From: Rhodospirillaceae bacterium
GTDB taxonomy: Bacteria; Pseudomonadota; Alphaproteobacteria; Rhodospirillales; JABHCV01
Direction: 5' to 3'
Length of the DNA: 64,000 nt
Assembly: GCA_018671895.1 (NCBI GenBank)
Contig: JABHGV010000070.1
Span: 1-64,000 of the forward strand
Shown: positions 6,819-29,137 of the stretch, piece by piece
How positions within the stretch are numbered: the first letter of the stretch is position 1
How the letters are laid out: each line of letters begins with the position of its first letter
Translations under genes and position numbers: made by a program
Notes under the pieces: generated by a model
What the model was told of the DNA's origin: nothing
The model's database searches: none
Seen by the model: only the letters and a program-made list of their open reading frames with translations

Positions 6819-7603
6819 CAGCCGAGCATTGCCGAAACGGTCAACAGGATGGCGATCTCCACGACCTGACTGATGCTGCCCAACACATCGCCGGTATGGC
6901 CGCCGATTTGACGCTGGGCCAGCCAGCCCATGGCGATTGCCAAAGCAACACCTGTGGCAAGAACCATCCAGCCCACCGACCCGAGCAGCGCGAAGGCGAC
7001 GGCGGCAGCGATGGCAAGCGCCACGGCAACGGATTCAATGGACGGCTTTCCAGCCGACGCCCCAAGGCCGTCTTTACGGGCCGACGGCATTTGGTAAAGG
7101 GCGGCGACCATCAGGCTGCGCGATACCACGGCCGAGACAATCAGTGCCAATGCCGCTGTTCCGGGACCGGCCATGCTGGCCAGCGCCGCGGCACGAATGG
7201 CGACGGAAAATATCAGCGCCAGCACACCGTAAGCACCGATGCGGCTGTCGCGCATAATCTCCATTTTCGATTTCGCGTCACCGCCGCCGCCAAAGCCATC
7301 GGCGACATCGGCCAGAGCATCTTCGTGCAGGGCGCCTGTCACAAGAACGCCGGCGGCCAGCGCCAGCAAGCCGCAAGTCATCGGATACAGATCAAGCCAT
7401 GTGGTCCCCGCCATCAGCACGCCACCGGCAATGGCCCCGACAATCAGGCCGATGACCGGGAAACTCCAGGCAACGGCAGCCAACGGACGGGGTTCATCGG
7501 TGTCGGGCACCGGCACCGGCAGGCGGGTCAGGAAAACCATCGCCGTTTGCACATCACGGAGCCAGGCCGTAACGATATCGATATTTTTTTCGGCGTTTGC
7601 CAA
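6818..7603 (-). CDS. cobS: Adenosylcobinamide-GDP ribazoletransferase (cobalamin synthase)
   Basis: 261 residues with several hydrophobic segments, as expected for this inner-membrane enzyme that joins AdoCbi-GDP to alpha-ribazole (called CobV in the aerobic nomenclature). FLTRLPVPVPD near the N-terminus and GALHEDALADVADGFGGG (about residues 91-108, an acidic metal/substrate motif) are hallmarks. No ATG is available near the expected N-terminus; TTG at 7603, with AGGA about 8 bases upstream, is the best start. It opens the operon that runs to cobO. Confidence 0.93.
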   Translation of the reverse strand: MANAEKNIDIVTAWLRDVQTAMVFLTRLPVPVPDTDEPRPLAAVAWSFPVIGLIVGAIAGGVLMAGTTWLDLYPMTCGLLALAAGVLVTGALHEDALADVADGFGGGGDAKSKMEIMRDSRIGAYGVLALIFSVAIRAAALASMAGPGTAALALIVSAVVSRSLMVAALYQMPSARKDGLGASAGKPSIESVAVALAIAAAVAFALLGSVGWMVLATGVALAIAMGWLAQRQIGGHTGDVLGSISQVVEIAILLTVSAMLG

Positions 7604-18858: not shown

Positions 18859-20324
18859 CCGATCGCAGCCGCCTGATTTCCCTGATTGAAGCCACTGCCA
18901 ATGCAAAAGTCGTCTGCGTCGGTGATGTCATTCTGGACCATTTTCATTATGGTTCGGTCGAACGGATTTCGCCGGAAGCGCCGATCCCGGTCCTGAAGCT
19001 GGATCACGAAGACACCATGCTGGGCGGTGCCGGAAATGTGCTCAGGAACCTCGCCGGACTGGGTGCCGGGGTCAGTTTCCTGTCTGTCGTCGGCAAGGAC
19101 CATGACGGGCGCAGCGTCGAGCGCCTGCTTGCGGATATTGGCGTCACCGACACCCCCATCGTTGATGAAAACCGCCGTACATCGGTCAAGTCCCGTTTTC
19201 TGGCCGGAGGCCAACAAATGTTGCGCACCGACCGCGAGACCGTTTGTGACTTAAGCGAGGACCAGCAGAAAGAATTGATTGATGCCGCCACGGCGGCCAT
19301 GACGGACGCCCGGGTGCTTGTGCTATCGGATTATAAAAAGGGCGTGCTCAGCAAAAACGTCATCCAGGCATTGATCGCAGCGGCGCGGGCGGCCGATGTG
19401 TTTGTTGTTGTCGACCCCAAGGGAGCCGATTTTTCTGCCTATAGCGGTGCCGATGTCATCACCCCGAACCGGCATGAACTTCTCGATGCGACAGGCATGC
19501 CGACGAATAGTGATGAAGAGGTTATCGCGGCTGCCCGCCATTTGATCGACACATTCAGTTTCGGCGCGGTACTGGCGACCAGAAGCAAAGACGGCATGAC
19601 ACTTGTCGAAGATGGGGATTCAGTGCGTCACATGAAGGCCGAGGCCCAGGACGTGTTCGATGTGTCGGGCGCGGGCGACACCGTCGTTGCGACCCTGGCC
19701 GGGGCCATTGCCGCCGGAGGGGATCTCGGCGAAGCAGCCGAACTTGCCAATATTGCCGCCGGAATCGTTGTCGCCAAGGTCGGCACCGCCGTTGCCTATT
19801 CAGATGACATTATCTCATCCCTGCACCATCTCGACATTACCCGCGCCGAGGCCAAGGTGCTTGCCTTGCGGTCGGGTGTTGAGCGCATTGATGCATGGCG
19901 ACGCAGCGGTGCCACCATCGGCTTTACCAATGGCTGTTTCGATCTGTTGCACCCCGGACATGTATCGCTGCTGGAGCAGTCAAAGGGTGCATGCGCGCGA
20001 CTGATCGTCGGACTGAACAGCGATGCCTCGATCAAACGCCTGAAGGGCGATGACAGACCGGTACAGACCGAGGCGGCCCGGGCCGCCGTGCTGGCGTCGC
20101 TCGGTTCCGTCGATATGGTCATTATTTTTTCCGAAGACACGCCGATCGACCTGATCGAAGCAATCCGCCCGGACGTTCTGGTCAAGGGGGCGGACTACAC
20201 CGTCAATACCGTCGTCGGTGCGGACCTGGTCCAGTCTTATGGTGGTCGGGTCGAACTGTTCGCGCTGGAACCGGGTCACAGCACGACGGCAACGATTGCC
20301 CGTCTCGCTGGTGAAACCTGCTAA
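18855..20324 (+). CDS. hldE: Bifunctional heptose-7-phosphate kinase / heptose-1-phosphate adenylyltransferase
   Basis: 489 residues from ATG 18855, which overlaps the gmhA stop; a longer in-frame extension to 18822 is unlikely. The N-terminal PfkB/ribokinase-type kinase has GGAGNVLRNLAGLG and DVSGAGDTVVA; the C-terminal nucleotidyltransferase has TNGCFDLLHPGHVSLL and the KGADYTVNTVVGAD loop. It gives heptose bisphosphate and later ADP-heptose. The intermediate phosphatase (gmhB) and epimerase (hldD) are not in the window. Confidence 0.95.
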   Translation: MTDRSRLISLIEATANAKVVCVGDVILDHFHYGSVERISPEAPIPVLKLDHEDTMLGGAGNVLRNLAGLGAGVSFLSVVGKDHDGRSVERLLADIGVTDTPIVDENRRTSVKSRFLAGGQQMLRTDRETVCDLSEDQQKELIDAATAAMTDARVLVLSDYKKGVLSKNVIQALIAAARAADVFVVVDPKGADFSAYSGADVITPNRHELLDATGMPTNSDEEVIAAARHLIDTFSFGAVLATRSKDGMTLVEDGDSVRHMKAEAQDVFDVSGAGDTVVATLAGAIAAGGDLGEAAELANIAAGIVVAKVGTAVAYSDDIISSLHHLDITRAEAKVLALRSGVERIDAWRRSGATIGFTNGCFDLLHPGHVSLLEQSKGACARLIVGLNSDASIKRLKGDDRPVQTEAARAAVLASLGSVDMVIIFSEDTPIDLIEAIRPDVLVKGADYTVNTVVGADLVQSYGGRVELFALEPGHSTTATIARLAGETC

Positions 20325-20328
20325 AAAT

Positions 20329-22188
20329 CTATCTGAAGAAACTTTTCACGGCATCCCAGAAACCACCGCCATCTGATTCCTGCGATCCATCTGAGCCCGG
20401 TATTTCATCGCCTTTTTTAGGGGACACGAAAGCATGGGCCGGGGTCTTGGCGTGGGCCGCAGCCATGAAATCCCGCCAGGCACGAGCCGGCAACCCGCCG
20501 CCGGTAACATTCTTCATCGGGGCCGAGTTGTCGTTGCCCATCCACACGCCAGTAACCAGGTCGGCACTGTAGCCAACAAACCAGGCATCGCGGAATTTCT
20601 GACTGGTGCCTGTTTTACCCGCCGCCGGGCGTTTCAGGGCGGCGGCCTTGCCGGTGCCACCCTTCAATGTGCCCGCCAGCATCTTGCTCATGGCTGCGGC
20701 GTGACTTCCCGACATCACCCGGCCGGGACCGGAACCCTGACGCCGGTATAAAAGCGCGCCTTTGCCATCGCGAATTTCCTCGATGCCGTGGGCCCAAACC
20801 CCGTTGCCGCCATTTGCGAACGCGCCATAAGCCGCCGTCAGTTCCATCAAGGTCAGTGAGCTGGAGCCAAGCGCCAGACTGGGAGCGGTCGTTAAATCCG
20901 CAGTGATCCCAAGCCGTTTGGCAACCGCAATGATGCGTTTGTGGCCCGCCTTTTGGCCGACCCTGACGGCCACTGTGTTGATTGATTGTGCCAGCGCATC
21001 AGACATGCTGATCTTTCCTGAATACTTTCTGGAAAAGTTACGCGGACTCCAGCCATCAATGGTCAGGGGCTTGTCGTCGAACGTGTCAGAAGGCTTCAAA
21101 CCGGCTTCGAGTCCGGCCAGATAGACAATCGGTTTGAACGCCGATCCGGGTTGTCTGACGGCCTGGGTCGCGCGATTGAACTGACTAAGCCCGTAATCGG
21201 CACCGCCAACCATGGCCCGGACCGCGCCTGATGGACTGATCGCCAGCAACGCCGCCTGACTGACATTGCTTTTATCGCCCTGTTTTAAAGCCCGGGCGAT
21301 GGCCCGTTCCGCATCGCCCTGCAAGGCGCGATCCAGTGTCGTCGTTACCGTGATGTCGGTGTCGCCCGGCGACACATAGGACGATATTTGCGACATGATC
21401 CAGTCGGAGAAATAGCGCGGGCGGCGTCCGCTTTTGGTCGGCTTCACAGACCCTGATTTTTTCACCTTTCGGGCTTCGGCGTCGCTTAGGTACCCGGCGG
21501 CCACCATGTTCGCGACCACCTGTGCCGTGCGTTTTTTTGCCCGTTCCGGATTGGCCACCGGATTGTACCGCGACGGGGCTTTCAGCAATCCGGCCAGCAT
21601 CGCCGCCTGATAGGTATTCAAACGCGTCGCCGATTTCGAAAAATAGCGCCGCGCCGCCGCTTCAATCCCATAGGCACCGGAACCCAGATACACCCGGTTC
21701 AGGTAAATGGTCAGAATCTGATCCTTGTTGAAGCGTCGTTCGAGCCACAACGCCAACAATAATTCCTGCGCCTTGCGCTTCAACGTCCGGTCCGGCGTCA
21801 GAAACAAATTTTTGGCCACCTGCTGTGTCAGGGTCGAGCCGCCCTGAACAATGCCGCCCGCCTTCACGTTCGCCCAGGTGGCGCGGCCAAGGCCGACCAC
21901 ATCAAGGCCAAAGTGGTCATAAAACCGACGGTCTTCGGTCGCCAATACCGCCTGCACCATGGCCGGGGGGACTTGATCGAGGCCGACGGCGAGGCCGTGA
22001 ATTTCACCAACGGTCAACAAGTGGCTACCGTCAGCAGCCAGCAAGGTCACCGTCGGGCGACGGGTGGCGGCCAGTGCGTCATCAATGTCGGGCAGGTCAT
22101 AGGCGTAAAAGGCAAGCAGACCCAGGACGGCAATGCCGGCCCAGACGACCAGCGCCATAAGGCGAACTAAAACAGGCTTCAGTCCCAC
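20329..22188 (-). CDS. Class A penicillin-binding protein (PBP1 family)
   Basis: 619 residues. One membrane anchor near the N-terminus (residues about 10-30), then a GT51 glycosyltransferase domain (ATEDRRFYDHFGLD, GGSTLTQQVAKN, ERRFNKDQILTIYLNRVYLG) and a transpeptidase domain (active-site SAFK in RQPGSAFKP, SIN, and KTGTSQ). It polymerises and cross-links peptidoglycan on the periplasmic side. The first codon is GTG at 22188; ATG at 22158 is an alternative that still keeps the anchor. It follows the pentapeptide-repeat gene by 9 bases and ends 4 bases from the convergent hldE stop. Confidence 0.92.
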   Translation of the reverse strand: MGLKPVLVRLMALVVWAGIAVLGLLAFYAYDLPDIDDALAATRRPTVTLLAADGSHLLTVGEIHGLAVGLDQVPPAMVQAVLATEDRRFYDHFGLDVVGLGRATWANVKAGGIVQGGSTLTQQVAKNLFLTPDRTLKRKAQELLLALWLERRFNKDQILTIYLNRVYLGSGAYGIEAAARRYFSKSATRLNTYQAAMLAGLLKAPSRYNPVANPERAKKRTAQVVANMVAAGYLSDAEARKVKKSGSVKPTKSGRRPRYFSDWIMSQISSYVSPGDTDITVTTTLDRALQGDAERAIARALKQGDKSNVSQAALLAISPSGAVRAMVGGADYGLSQFNRATQAVRQPGSAFKPIVYLAGLEAGLKPSDTFDDKPLTIDGWSPRNFSRKYSGKISMSDALAQSINTVAVRVGQKAGHKRIIAVAKRLGITADLTTAPSLALGSSSLTLMELTAAYGAFANGGNGVWAHGIEEIRDGKGALLYRRQGSGPGRVMSGSHAAAMSKMLAGTLKGGTGKAAALKRPAAGKTGTSQKFRDAWFVGYSADLVTGVWMGNDNSAPMKNVTGGGLPARAWRDFMAAAHAKTPAHAFVSPKKGDEIPGSDGSQESDGGGFWDAVKSFFR

Positions 22189-22197
22189 GGCGGATAT

Positions 22198-22575
22198 TTA
22201 CGGCAGCTGGCAACTAAGCATCTTGTGCAGGATGCCGGGTTTAACCTTGCAGCCCTTCAGGTTGGTCCGCCATATTTCGGCCCCGGTGAAGTCGGCATCG
22301 GTCAGGTCCGCACCGCGCAGATCGGCCTCGCTCAAATCGACAAAGGACAGCAGCGCAGCTTTTAAGCTGGCGTTCAGCATGACTGTGCCGGAAAGATTAG
22401 CGCCGCGCAGATCAACACCGGAAAGGTTGGCGCCGCTGAGGTTCGAATCACGCAGGTCGGCATTGCGCAGATCAAACGGACGCAAGTCCATGTCGCGCAT
22501 GTCGCAGTTGTTGAGCACGGCGCGCCCGCCCGACGCATCGTTAAGGATTTGCTTGATCGTTTTTGCCTTGGCCAT
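22198..22575 (-). CDS. Pentapeptide-repeat protein next to gyrB
   Basis: 125 residues, most of it consecutive A(D/N)LXX-type repeats (about residues 20-110, for example DLRNADLRDSNLSGANLSG), forming a right-handed quadrilateral beta-helix. There is no signal peptide. The start lies 12 bases after the gyrB stop on the same strand, so the two are almost certainly co-transcribed. Some proteins of this fold (MfpA, Qnr) mimic DNA and bind gyrase; that this one does so is an inference from position only. It is shorter than Qnr (about 218 residues) and MfpA (about 183). Confidence 0.85.
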   Translation of the reverse strand: MAKAKTIKQILNDASGGRAVLNNCDMRDMDLRPFDLRNADLRDSNLSGANLSGVDLRGANLSGTVMLNASLKAALLSFVDLSEADLRGADLTDADFTGAEIWRTNLKGCKVKPGILHKMLSCQLP

Positions 22576-22587
22576 GATCTATCTCCT

Positions 22588-26281
<3,694 letters not shown>

Positions 26282-26330
26282 GCCTTGTGAACGGGTCAGT
26301 TCCCTAACTCCTCACGCGCATATATTTTCC

Positions 26331-26373
26331 GCGCGTTCATACGCGCTCGGGCTTGTTGCGCGTTCATACGCGC
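26331..26373. repeat. Duplicated palindrome between dnaN and recF
   Basis: The 16-base palindrome-like sequence GCGCGTTCATACGCGC occurs twice, at 26331-26346 and 26358-26373, and each copy can fold as a GCGCG/CGCGC hairpin. The second copy covers the dnaN stop codon. A related GCGC-rich stretch lies just before (about 26315-26335). Confidence 0.7.
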
Positions 26374-27479
26374 ATGGGCATCAAAACGTACAACGCGCTG
26401 GCGTCGTCGGTTTCGCTGAGGATCGTCGGCGCTGCCGCATCGGCCAGGGTAAAGCGCGCACTATCGCCTTCGATCTGGTGGGTGATGTCGAGCAAATAGC
26501 GCGAATTGAAGCCAATTTCGATCTCGTCGCCTTCATAGGCGACTTCTAGTTCTTCCGTGGCCGTGCCGGAATCCGGCGAAGACGCCGACAGCACCAGCGT
26601 TCCGCTGTTCAGTGCCAGCTTGATAGCCCGGGATTTTTCCGTCGAGATCGCCGACACGCGGTCGACGGCATCGGCAAATGATTTGCAATCGACAACCAGC
26701 ACCTTGTCGTTGCCCTCTGGAATAACCCGTTCGTAATCCGGGAACGTTCCGTCGATCAGCTTCGAGGTCAGAATGACGCCTTCGAAGGTGAAGCGGATTT
26801 TAGTTTCCGACAGTTCGACGGCGATATCATCGGTGGTTTCTTCGATCAACTTGCGCAGCTCGCCGACCGTCTTGCGCGGCACGATAATGCCGGGCATACC
26901 GTCCGCCCCGCTGGGCAACGGGCCTTCGACGCTGGCCAGCCGGTGGCCGTCGGTGGCAACCGCGCGCAGCACAGGGGTGCCGTCCCGGTCAGCGGCATGC
27001 AGGTATATGCCGTTCAGGTAATAACGGGTTTCTTCCGTTGAAATGGCGAAGCGCGTCCTGTCGACCAGGCCACGAATTTCGGCCGCCGGCACGCTGAACG
27101 AATGGCCCATGTCGCCGCCGGACATGACCGGGAAGTCATCGGTCGGCAGGCAGGTCAGGGTAAAGCGTGAGCGCCCGGACCTGAGCGTCATCTCGCCGTC
27201 ATCGGCACTTTCGAATTCAATGTCAGAGCCATCCGGCAATTTACGGACGATTTCATAGAGCGTGAGGGCCGGGGCCGTTGTCGCACCCGGCGTCGCCACT
27301 TCGGCCGGGACTTGGTCGACAATGTCCAGGTCCATATCGGTGGCGTTCAGGCTTAAGCGCCCGTCACCGGCCTCGATGCGGACATTCGATAAAATGGGGA
27401 TGGTGTTGCGGCGCTCGACGACGCTCTGCACGTGTCCCAGAGACTTCAGTAAAGCGGCCCGTTCAATGGTGAATTTCAT
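26364..27479 (-). CDS. dnaN: DNA polymerase III beta subunit (sliding clamp)
   Basis: 371 residues, the usual length, starting MKFTIERAALLKSL and ending LYVLMPMRV, both typical of DnaN. It forms the ring that holds polymerase on DNA. It follows dnaA after 275 bases of hairpin-rich sequence. Confidence 0.98.
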   Translation of the reverse strand: MKFTIERAALLKSLGHVQSVVERRNTIPILSNVRIEAGDGRLSLNATDMDLDIVDQVPAEVATPGATTAPALTLYEIVRKLPDGSDIEFESADDGEMTLRSGRSRFTLTCLPTDDFPVMSGGDMGHSFSVPAAEIRGLVDRTRFAISTEETRYYLNGIYLHAADRDGTPVLRAVATDGHRLASVEGPLPSGADGMPGIIVPRKTVGELRKLIEETTDDIAVELSETKIRFTFEGVILTSKLIDGTFPDYERVIPEGNDKVLVVDCKSFADAVDRVSAISTEKSRAIKLALNSGTLVLSASSPDSGTATEELEVAYEGDEIEIGFNSRYLLDITHQIEGDSARFTLADAAAPTILSETDDASALYVLMPMRV

Positions 27480-27754
27480 ATTTCTGACGTCGTTTCAAAA
27501 GTTGGCTTCAAATGGTTGCGTGTGTCGGAGGCACATCGCGTGCCTCTGATAGAGAGCCGCCAACACCCGGTTTTTCGGCTCTGAAAAACCGGTTCGATGA
27601 CGGCATCGAACATGTCCCCAGGGAATCCCCCCTTGCGGGAATTCATTATATCAAAAGCACCCCGAAGGGTAAGCTTTTTCGACGCCCGAAAAGGCATAAA
27701 AAAGTGGCGATTCAGATGGCTGGAAAGGCCCTTGTTTTAAGGGACTTAGGACAC
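27480..27754. other. Hairpin-rich leader between dnaA and dnaN
   Basis: The gap holds at least three good stem-loops: GAGGCAC/GTGCCTC (27528-27546, extendable to 10 pairs), a perfect 10-bp stem CCGGTTTTTC/GAAAAACCGG (27567-27592), and GCTTTTTCG/CGAAAAGGC (27673-27695, one G-T pair). On the minus strand none is followed by a T-run, so they look like mRNA structure or protein-binding sites and not terminators. Confidence 0.6.
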
Positions 27755-29137
27755 TTAACCCTCGAGCATGCGACGCAGCAGCTCGACGTCTTCGGCAAAC
27801 GATGAATCGCACTCACGCAGCTCGTCAACTTTCTTCACCGCATGCATCACCGTGGTGTGGTCTCGACCACCGAATTTACGACCGATTTCCGGCAGTGACC
27901 GGGCCGTTAATTGCTTCGCCAGATACATGGCAACCTGCCGTGGGCGGGCGACGGAACGGGCGCGCCGGGCCGAATGCATGTCCGATGTTCGAATATTGAA
28001 GTGCGAGGCCACCCGTTTCTGTATTTCCTCGATGGTCACCCGGCGATCATTGGCACGCAACAGGTCGTGCAGGACTTCCTGGGTCGTCTCCAGCGAGATT
28101 TCGCGGCCGACCAGCTGTGAATGAGTGACGACACGGTTCAGTGCGCCTTCCAGCTCGCGCACGTTGGCGGTGATTTTATGGGCCAGGAACTCCAGCATCT
28201 TCTGGGGAACCTCGACATTGAACTGTTCAGCCTTCGATTGCAGGATGCCGAGGCGAAGCTCGAAGGTCGTGGCGTGAATATCGGCAACCAAGCCGCTGTT
28301 AAGGCGTGATTGCAGACGCTCTTCCATGCCTTCCAGATCAGATGGCGATTTGTCCGCCGACAAGACGATCTGGCGGCCCTGGTCGACCAATGCGTTAAAG
28401 GTATGGAAAAATTCTTCCTGGGTCGCGCCCTTGCCACCGATAAACTGGACATCATCAATCATCAGCACATCGACATTACGGAACATATCCTTGAAATCGA
28501 CGGTGTTCTGTTCCTTCAGCGCCCGGATGAACCGGTACATGAACTTTTCAGCCGACATATAGATGACGGTGCGCTTCGGATCCTGATTACGGATGTGCAA
28601 GGCAATGGCGTGCATCAAGTGGGTCTTACCCAGGCCGACGCCGCCATACAGGAACAGCGGATTGAACGGCACCGACGGTGCCTCTGCGACGCGTCGGGCA
28701 GCGGCATAGGCAAATTCATTGGGCTTGCCGACGACGAAGTTTTCAAACGTATAGCGACTGTCGAGCGGCGCACTGATGGTTGTGTAGCTGATCTCGGGTG
28801 TCGCTGTGTGGGTCTTGCGTTCCGGCTGGGACGGGCTCAACGTGGCCTCGTCGGATGCCGGGACGGAGCGGTCCGATTGCACCGATATGTCCACGCGTTC
28901 AATTGTTGAGTCGACAGTTCCCCACAAGTCACCCAGTCGGTCGGCATAATGGGCAATAACCCAGTCACGCATGAAGCGCGTTGGAACGGAAATTCTGGCA
29001 ACGCCATTGGTGACCGCACGAACGGCCATTGGCTTAACCCAACTTTGGTATGCGGCTTCCCCGATTTCACCACGCAGGCTTTCGCAAACCTCGTTCCAGT
29101 GCTCCTCGTTATAAGCCTCGGTCCTGTCGCTCGTCAT
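27755..29137 (-). CDS. dnaA: Chromosomal replication initiator DnaA
   Basis: 460 residues. AAA+ domain with the P-loop FLYGGVGLGKTHLMHAIA and Walker B VLMIDDVQF, and a C-terminal DNA-binding domain ending in GRKFGGRDHTTVMHAVKKV. It binds DnaA boxes and opens the origin. The start ATG at 29137 has AGGGAC upstream. Expression likely comes from the long upstream gap. Confidence 0.98.
   Translation of the reverse strand: MTSDRTEAYNEEHWNEVCESLRGEIGEAAYQSWVKPMAVRAVTNGVARISVPTRFMRDWVIAHYADRLGDLWGTVDSTIERVDISVQSDRSVPASDEATLSPSQPERKTHTATPEISYTTISAPLDSRYTFENFVVGKPNEFAYAAARRVAEAPSVPFNPLFLYGGVGLGKTHLMHAIALHIRNQDPKRTVIYMSAEKFMYRFIRALKEQNTVDFKDMFRNVDVLMIDDVQFIGGKGATQEEFFHTFNALVDQGRQIVLSADKSPSDLEGMEERLQSRLNSGLVADIHATTFELRLGILQSKAEQFNVEVPQKMLEFLAHKITANVRELEGALNRVVTHSQLVGREISLETTQEVLHDLLRANDRRVTIEEIQKRVASHFNIRTSDMHSARRARSVARPRQVAMYLAKQLTARSLPEIGRKFGGRDHTTVMHAVKKVDELRECDSSFAEDVELLRRMLEG

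Follow-up and report, generated by a model that had tools for sequence, protein, structure and literature searches.

A conserved and native gene for a short pentapeptide-repeat protein in the gyrase operon of an alphaproteobacterium

The DNA analysed here, referred to as the window, was a stretch of 64,000 nucleotides from a Rhodospirillaceae bacterium. Directly behind gyrB it carries a gene for a pentapeptide-repeat protein (PRP), which is a real, conserved and native gene of the gyrase operon and a new member of the PRP fold family (Table 1). The reading that we favour, with about even confidence, is that the product is a native accessory binding peg of the cytosol working through its C-terminal end. 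Judged by titles and abstract openings, none of the papers listed in the literature searches deals with an alphaproteobacterial gyrB operon that contains a PRP gene.

Table 1. Features of the PRP gene, its product and its neighbours in the window
Feature	Position	Strand	Basis and remarks
Pentapeptide-repeat protein (PRP) gene	22198..22575	minus	ATG start, 125 aa; ORF, Pfam, orthologues
gyrB	22588..25068	minus	Directly upstream of the PRP gene; TIGR01059 986.7 bits, cut-off 882.4
PBP1A-family transglycosylase-transpeptidase (PBP) gene	20329..22188	minus	TIGR02074 607.1 bits, cut-off 508.75
AGGAGA, Shine-Dalgarno-like, in the gyrB-PRP gap	22582..22587	minus	Direct sequence reading
recF, dnaN, dnaA, replication cluster upstream of gyrB	25061..29137	minus	ORFs; names from reading of the proteins
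Pentapeptide repeats, 19 without interruption over residues 19-113, making 4.75 coils without protruding loop	22237..22521	minus	Register by eye and model
N-terminal cap helix, residues 4-13	22537..22566	minus	Model and alignment
Family C-terminal signature, W102 R103 x N105 ... L116 H117 ... C122, including cap helix 115-121	22210..22272	minus	Conservation, model

The genes dnaA, dnaN, recF, gyrB, PRP and PBP are all encoded on the minus strand, and homologues of recF, dnaN and dnaA were found in the same order at other loci. The hldE and gmhA genes, named from reading their proteins, lie further along the window in the same region. The preliminary description had placed the PRP start 12 bases after gyrB, and the coordinates of the ORF and of the TIGR01059 match agreed with this. 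The gap contains AGGAGA ahead of the PRP ATG, and only 9 bases separate the PRP gene from the PBP gene downstream. The base use was like that of the neighbours, as had also been described: GC (0.582), GC3 (0.730) and codon index (0.689) fell within the range of nine neighbouring genes (0.584, 0.712 and 0.711, respectively, for gyrB). A consensus scan of 20200-27600 gave no promoter-like site, where 2.2 would be expected from shuffled sequence, and nothing resembling a terminator on the minus strand from gyrB to the PBP gene. The short gaps, the lack of such sites and the matching codon use suggested that gyrB, PRP and PBP are likely to be co-transcribed.

The protein scored 85.3 bits against Pfam PF00805 (E 1.9e-24; cut-off 20.2). 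This placed it in the pentapeptide-repeat superfamily, as defined by at least eight contiguous pentapeptides or a Pfam match above the cut-off. It had been described as consisting almost only of pentapeptide repeats. The 19 repeats bear this out, but the protein also has an N-terminal cap helix in the model and a conserved C-terminus outside the repeats. The window copy lacks, or has a gap at, the HxxW that the N-terminal cap shows in the 13 homologues aligned with it. The first 18 residues, read by eye, are polar and basic and lack a hydrophobic core, and no signal peptide or membrane stretch was visible in the protein.

The window protein was aligned with 20 viral PRP stretches and modelled with AlphaFold; this alignment informs the repeats and not the C-terminus. 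The model had a mean pLDDT of 88.3 and formed a regular beta-helix with helices at residues 4-13 and 115-121. The last 15 residues were among the least confident (block means of 76 and 57), and helix 115-121 was predicted with middling to low confidence. A single-sequence model (mean pLDDT 54.1) was discarded. The nearest solved structures, by sequence and model, were designed beta1 solenoids, HetL, lumenal PRPs, the PRP part of NleL, and MfpA. Foldseek and VIA-align recovered PRPs of many functions, including the NleL and SopA effectors, so the fold matches did not discriminate function. The common fold gives no function.

The 13 homologues in the first alignment were 39-57% identical, and the profile made from it has 14 rows, of which the window protein is one. 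Of 60 relatives, 47 gave some PRP match, and only a subset aligned to the C-terminal end. In a profile search of the class, which the named relatives of GyrB indicate to be Alphaproteobacteria, 84 of 387 genomes matched at 1e-22. At least 20 of the 387, our own included, did so at E <= 2.5e-34 and reached model position 130-132. The next match (5.3e-27) stopped at position 108, and matches of this strength and weaker mostly ended near there, in long frames. The score gap and the match to the model's end set the orthologue family apart from other PRPs. The window protein, itself a row of the profile, scored 171.3 bits over model positions 19-132; it belongs to this family by its match to the model's end and by the pattern WRxN...LHxxLxC at W102-C122.

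In the order, at least 33 of 225 genomes, all at least 90% complete, carry a PRP orthologue at E <= 1e-29. In the phylum, at least 3 of 397 passed 1e-29: our own, one class member and G879. The last, from outside the class, was rejected as an orthologue, its protein being without the C-terminal signature. The class and phylum genomes were drawn samples, and the carrier counts are lower bounds, with at most 11 first-look candidates per genome scored in the class search and at most 18 in the order search. A second PRP of the window's own genome (G000:C33:52338-52532, locus L003), downstream of an ORF that by eye reads like a polymerase V/UmuC protein, is of a different kind and lacks the signature. 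Another different PRP (G292:C80, locus L069) was left out of the counts.

L116, H117 and C122 were found in all 55 rows of an alignment of 54 loci plus the window, from which L049 and L069 were left out; W102, R103 and N105 were found in 95%. The pattern occurred in none of 80 viral PRP loci, and the window protein as query found no relative in viral contigs. When a profile of the C-terminal end was compared with solved structures, the best stretches in PRP chains ended at or before position 43 of 51 (five chains were followed residue by residue), and one non-PRP chain matched 28-47 at E 0.27. With the full-length profile of 132 positions, the alignment ran to position 127 for AhQnr and to position 129 for QnrB1. 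Judged from these alignments, the family C-terminus may bear a distant likeness to that of Qnr.

One locus (L049, about 6837-7109) encodes a shortened homologue with about nine pentapeptides in which the N-terminal cap and the C-terminal signature are both retained, as though the number of coils were free and the ends mattered. This copy was included in the locus counts and left out of the 55-row alignment, the tree and the charge counts. Outside the order, 15 of the 19 homologues (L051-L061, L063, L064, L066, L068) have about 70-100 additional residues on the N-terminal side. These show the pattern GE-x-A-x-D ... A-x-R-x-LR ... LP and are possibly a separate small domain.

Among 41 pairs of close relatives, drawn from eight groups, the dN/dS ratio was 0.010-0.295 in 39, and the other two pairs were saturated. 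The PRP gene is under purifying selection, and these ratios together with the 39-57% identity of the homologues showed that it is a real gene. The identities of PRP and GyrB were correlated across the 22 genomes whose retrieved loci contain both genes (Mantel r 0.76, reached in 0 of 2000 permutations; Spearman 0.42). This parallel divergence supported vertical inheritance.

Four loci from less complete genomes (G016, G017, G036, G052) were added to the 33 of the order search, our own included, to give 37 order loci. In 19 of them the PRP gene lies directly behind gyrB on the same strand. These 19 loci span eight families (f1, f3, f5, f13, f17, f19, f25, f27), and in the 18 of them other than the window the conserved PRP core lies 15-209 bp from the gyrB stop. 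In L043 the two genes adjoin on opposite strands, and in L038, L039 and L049 they are 1.6-4.3 kb apart. A PBP match follows the PRP gene within 300 bp on the same strand in 20 of the 37. Thus, gyrB was not a more faithful neighbour than PBP. In three loci (L038, L040, L042) PBP is kept and gyrB is not adjacent; in two (L041, L048) gyrB is kept and there is no PBP match. In L044, L045 and L077 the PRP gene lies beside a gmhA-hldE pair, and in the remaining nine (seven of f22, L036 and L046) it lies elsewhere.

On a tree of the 55 rows, adjacency to gyrB required 6 changes, compared with 16.4 in shuffles, and 18 of the 52 inner branches of this weakly resolved tree were open. The gyrB-adjacent rows fell on both sides of the midpoint root, which suggested that the link to gyrB is probably old. 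The simplest reading is an ancestral order gyrB-PRP-PBP, followed by losses and moves.

The five other genomes of the window's own family gave no PRP match; their gyrB is 83-86% identical to that of the window. One of these genomes (G005) is 67% complete and has different DNA behind gyrB. The contig of G002 stops 14 bases past gyrB, and a PRP gene may thus lie beyond its end. In G004 the space between gyrB and PBP is about 0.3 kb, and in G001 and G003 it is filled by an unrelated ORF. The differing content suggested that the interval is a variable slot. The ORF, from the sister genus, encodes 332 aa in G001 (L260:7071-8069; also seen in L261). No PRP orthologue was found at 80 named gyrB loci; in at least six of these the contig stops no more than about 450 bp from gyrB, so that they say little. 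One of the 80 loci (L159) has nearby a large PRP of another kind, with 482 residues, whose matches stop at model position 116 and which was rejected as an orthologue. The preliminary description had named relatives lacking the gene next to gyrB, together with a lack of gyrase binding, as what would refute its reading. The first of these was borne out in part (18 of the 37 order loci, the five same-family genomes and the 80 named loci); the place behind gyrB was kept in 19 of the 37 loci and in eight families.

In the favoured reading, the PRP would be an accessory protein of the cytosol, native and inherited vertically. It would be co-expressed with gyrB because its gene already lay between gyrB and PBP in an ancestor within the order. 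By the model, the protein is a short square beta-helix peg: its 4.75 coils carry a cap helix at the N-terminus, and its C-terminal end is conserved (W102, R103, N105, L116, H117, C122). The repeats would serve as a spacer, leaving the work to the conserved face and helix at the C-terminus. This working end may bind one partner, or join two copies in the head-to-head manner of MfpA and Qnr, or both.

The ATPase subunit of a type II topoisomerase was the single most likely partner, tentatively so, and it was not favoured over all the others together. The gyrB neighbourhood alone does not establish a function with gyrase. Arguably, however, the link has been kept in eight families for longer than a neutral position need be. 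A full version of this idea, which we consider possible but doubtful, is a dedicated native modulator of type II topoisomerase: a half-length MfpA-like rod that would dimerise via its C-terminal helix, bind the ATPase region of GyrB (of ParE in one genus) and tune or protect gyrase. Its place behind gyrB in the 19 loci, the predicted C-terminal cap helix, which MfpA and Qnr also have, and the alignment of AhQnr and QnrB1 almost to the end of the profile are consistent with it. MfpA and QnrB1 bind N-terminal fragments of GyrB, according to the parts consulted of PMC10886550 and PMC7897471.

A second topoisomerase neighbour was found outside the order. With the exception of one genus, the homologues sampled there adjoin unrelated genes, such as those for DUF983, for an alpha-amylase domain, for a DAO/GCV_T (sarcosine-dehydrogenase-like) protein and for a HAD hydrolase. 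In the genus g71 of another order, all six carriers (L056-L059, L268, L272) have the PRP gene directly upstream of a parE-type gene, which again encodes an ATPase subunit; a seventh genome of the genus gave no PRP match. The parE gene of L056 scored 794.1 bits against TIGR01055 (cut-off 723.35), the model being tested on this locus only, and the other five were identified by similarity to GyrB. This adjacency hints at a topoisomerase link. It counts as a single evolutionary event and was noticed post hoc. By rough arithmetic, one such topoisomerase neighbour would arise by chance in about eleven independent placements with a probability of a few percent. Against it, the parE gene of L056 is 131 bp away from the PRP gene, and two carriers from another genus of the same family have no parE-type gene within 1.5 kb. 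The equal faithfulness of gyrB and PBP as neighbours also argues against a dedicated modulator, as does the lack of a gyrA or parC match in 56 loci around the PRP gene; 8 more loci gave none either.

The form of the protein adds to these objections. Gyrase-binding PRPs, as described in the accessible parts of PMC8145042, PMC7897471 and PMC10886550, are rods of eight to nine coils, dimeric via C-terminal helices and often negative; those sources place loops in QnrB1, AhQnr and AlbG. By register and model, the window protein has 4.75 coils, compared with the eight to nine of MfpA, Qnr and AlbG (PMC8145042, in part). The protruding loop or loops that Qnr and AlbG need for protection are absent, the register being unbroken and the secondary structure of the model regular.

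The charge was also compared. The window protein has a pI of 7.7 and a charge near 0; for the 20 gyrB-adjacent members, among them the window copy and L043, the mean charge is -7.2, with values from -11 to +1. The window copy is thus an outlier, and its near-zero charge was dropped as a decisive case against mimicry. Per 100 residues of the repeat region, the gyrB-adjacent members had -6.2 and the 20 viral PRPs -6.3. By family, the gyrB-adjacent and the other short members did not differ significantly (about -6.4 versus -4.6 per 100 residues; p 0.10 in a Mann-Whitney test). The charge is evidence neither for nor against gyrase binding. The DNA mimicry that had been suggested from MfpA and Qnr was not borne out: the protein has about half their coils and, in the model, no loop, and its repeats are no more acidic than those of the viral PRPs.

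The narrowest form of the topoisomerase reading, a minimal half-length MfpA relative native to one alphaproteobacterial order that would regulate the GyrB/ParE ATPase subunit as its dedicated partner, from the same message as gyrB and as a head-to-head dimer via the LHxxLxC ends, we consider unlikely. DnaA, encoded upstream, is a conceivable partner too, since QnrB was reported to bind DnaA (PMC6617969, seen in part).

A helper of PBP or of another envelope factor, with gyrB as an accidental neighbour, appeared quite improbable. The PBP gene directly downstream in 20 of the 37 loci, including the three without adjacent gyrB, and the three loci with gmhA-hldE instead would fit such a role. PBP active sites, however, are periplasmic, and the PRP shows no signal peptide or membrane stretch by eye. 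Moreover, L041 and L048 keep gyrB with no PBP match, and in 7 of the 80 named gyrB loci a PBP match starts within 350 bp of gyrB with no PRP between.

Import of the gene as a resistance determinant against quinolones or microcins, of the Qnr, McbG or AlbG kind, is very improbable: the fold is the same, but the matches to the NCBIfam models of MfpA (42.2, cut-off 360) and Qnr (32.5, cut-off 240) were weak and far below the cut-offs, and no mobile-element gene was noticed by eye among the ORFs of the window. The position behind gyrB in eight families, the divergence in parallel with GyrB and the native codon use indicated that the gene is not a recent resistance import, as the preliminary description had proposed.

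In the part of a review that was consulted, the endogenous functions of Qnr proteins are given as not determined (PMC10886550). A PRP gene behind gyrB in eight families and before parE in one genus is a ready test case for the native job of chromosomal gyrase-binding PRPs. If the protein does not bind gyrase, it will be a warning against reading a gyrase function from fold and neighbourhood.

Among the known systems, YjbI of Caulobacter (PMC12864828, in part) is likewise an alphaproteobacterial chromosomal PRP with conserved cysteines. It differs in its N-terminal secretion signal and its action at the outer membrane; no such signal was visible in the first 18 residues of the window protein. 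HetL and other Nostoc PRPs (3du1, NP275/276, Alr5209) are some of the nearest natural relatives with solved structures, judged both by sequence and by model. HetL also has an N-terminal cap helix, but it has ten coils (both from the consulted part of PMC8145042), and 3du1 shows neither WRxN nor the final Cys in its profile alignments.

Qnr (QnrB1, AhQnr) shares the fold and, as far as the model predicts it, the C-terminal cap helix, and the family profile matches residues 115-207 of 3pss_A (AhQnr). The window protein differs from it in having about half the coils and no loops A and B, in its divergence parallel to GyrB, and in not being known as mobile. MfpA of Mycobacterium, which belongs to the mfp conservon, is longer, with about 183 aa against the 125 aa and 4.75 coils of the window protein. 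It too is a chromosomal PRP and, as is predicted for the window protein, forms a square beta-helix with a C-terminal helix; the PRP model matched 2bm5_A with a Z of 17.2 and an rmsd of 2.1 over 106 residues.
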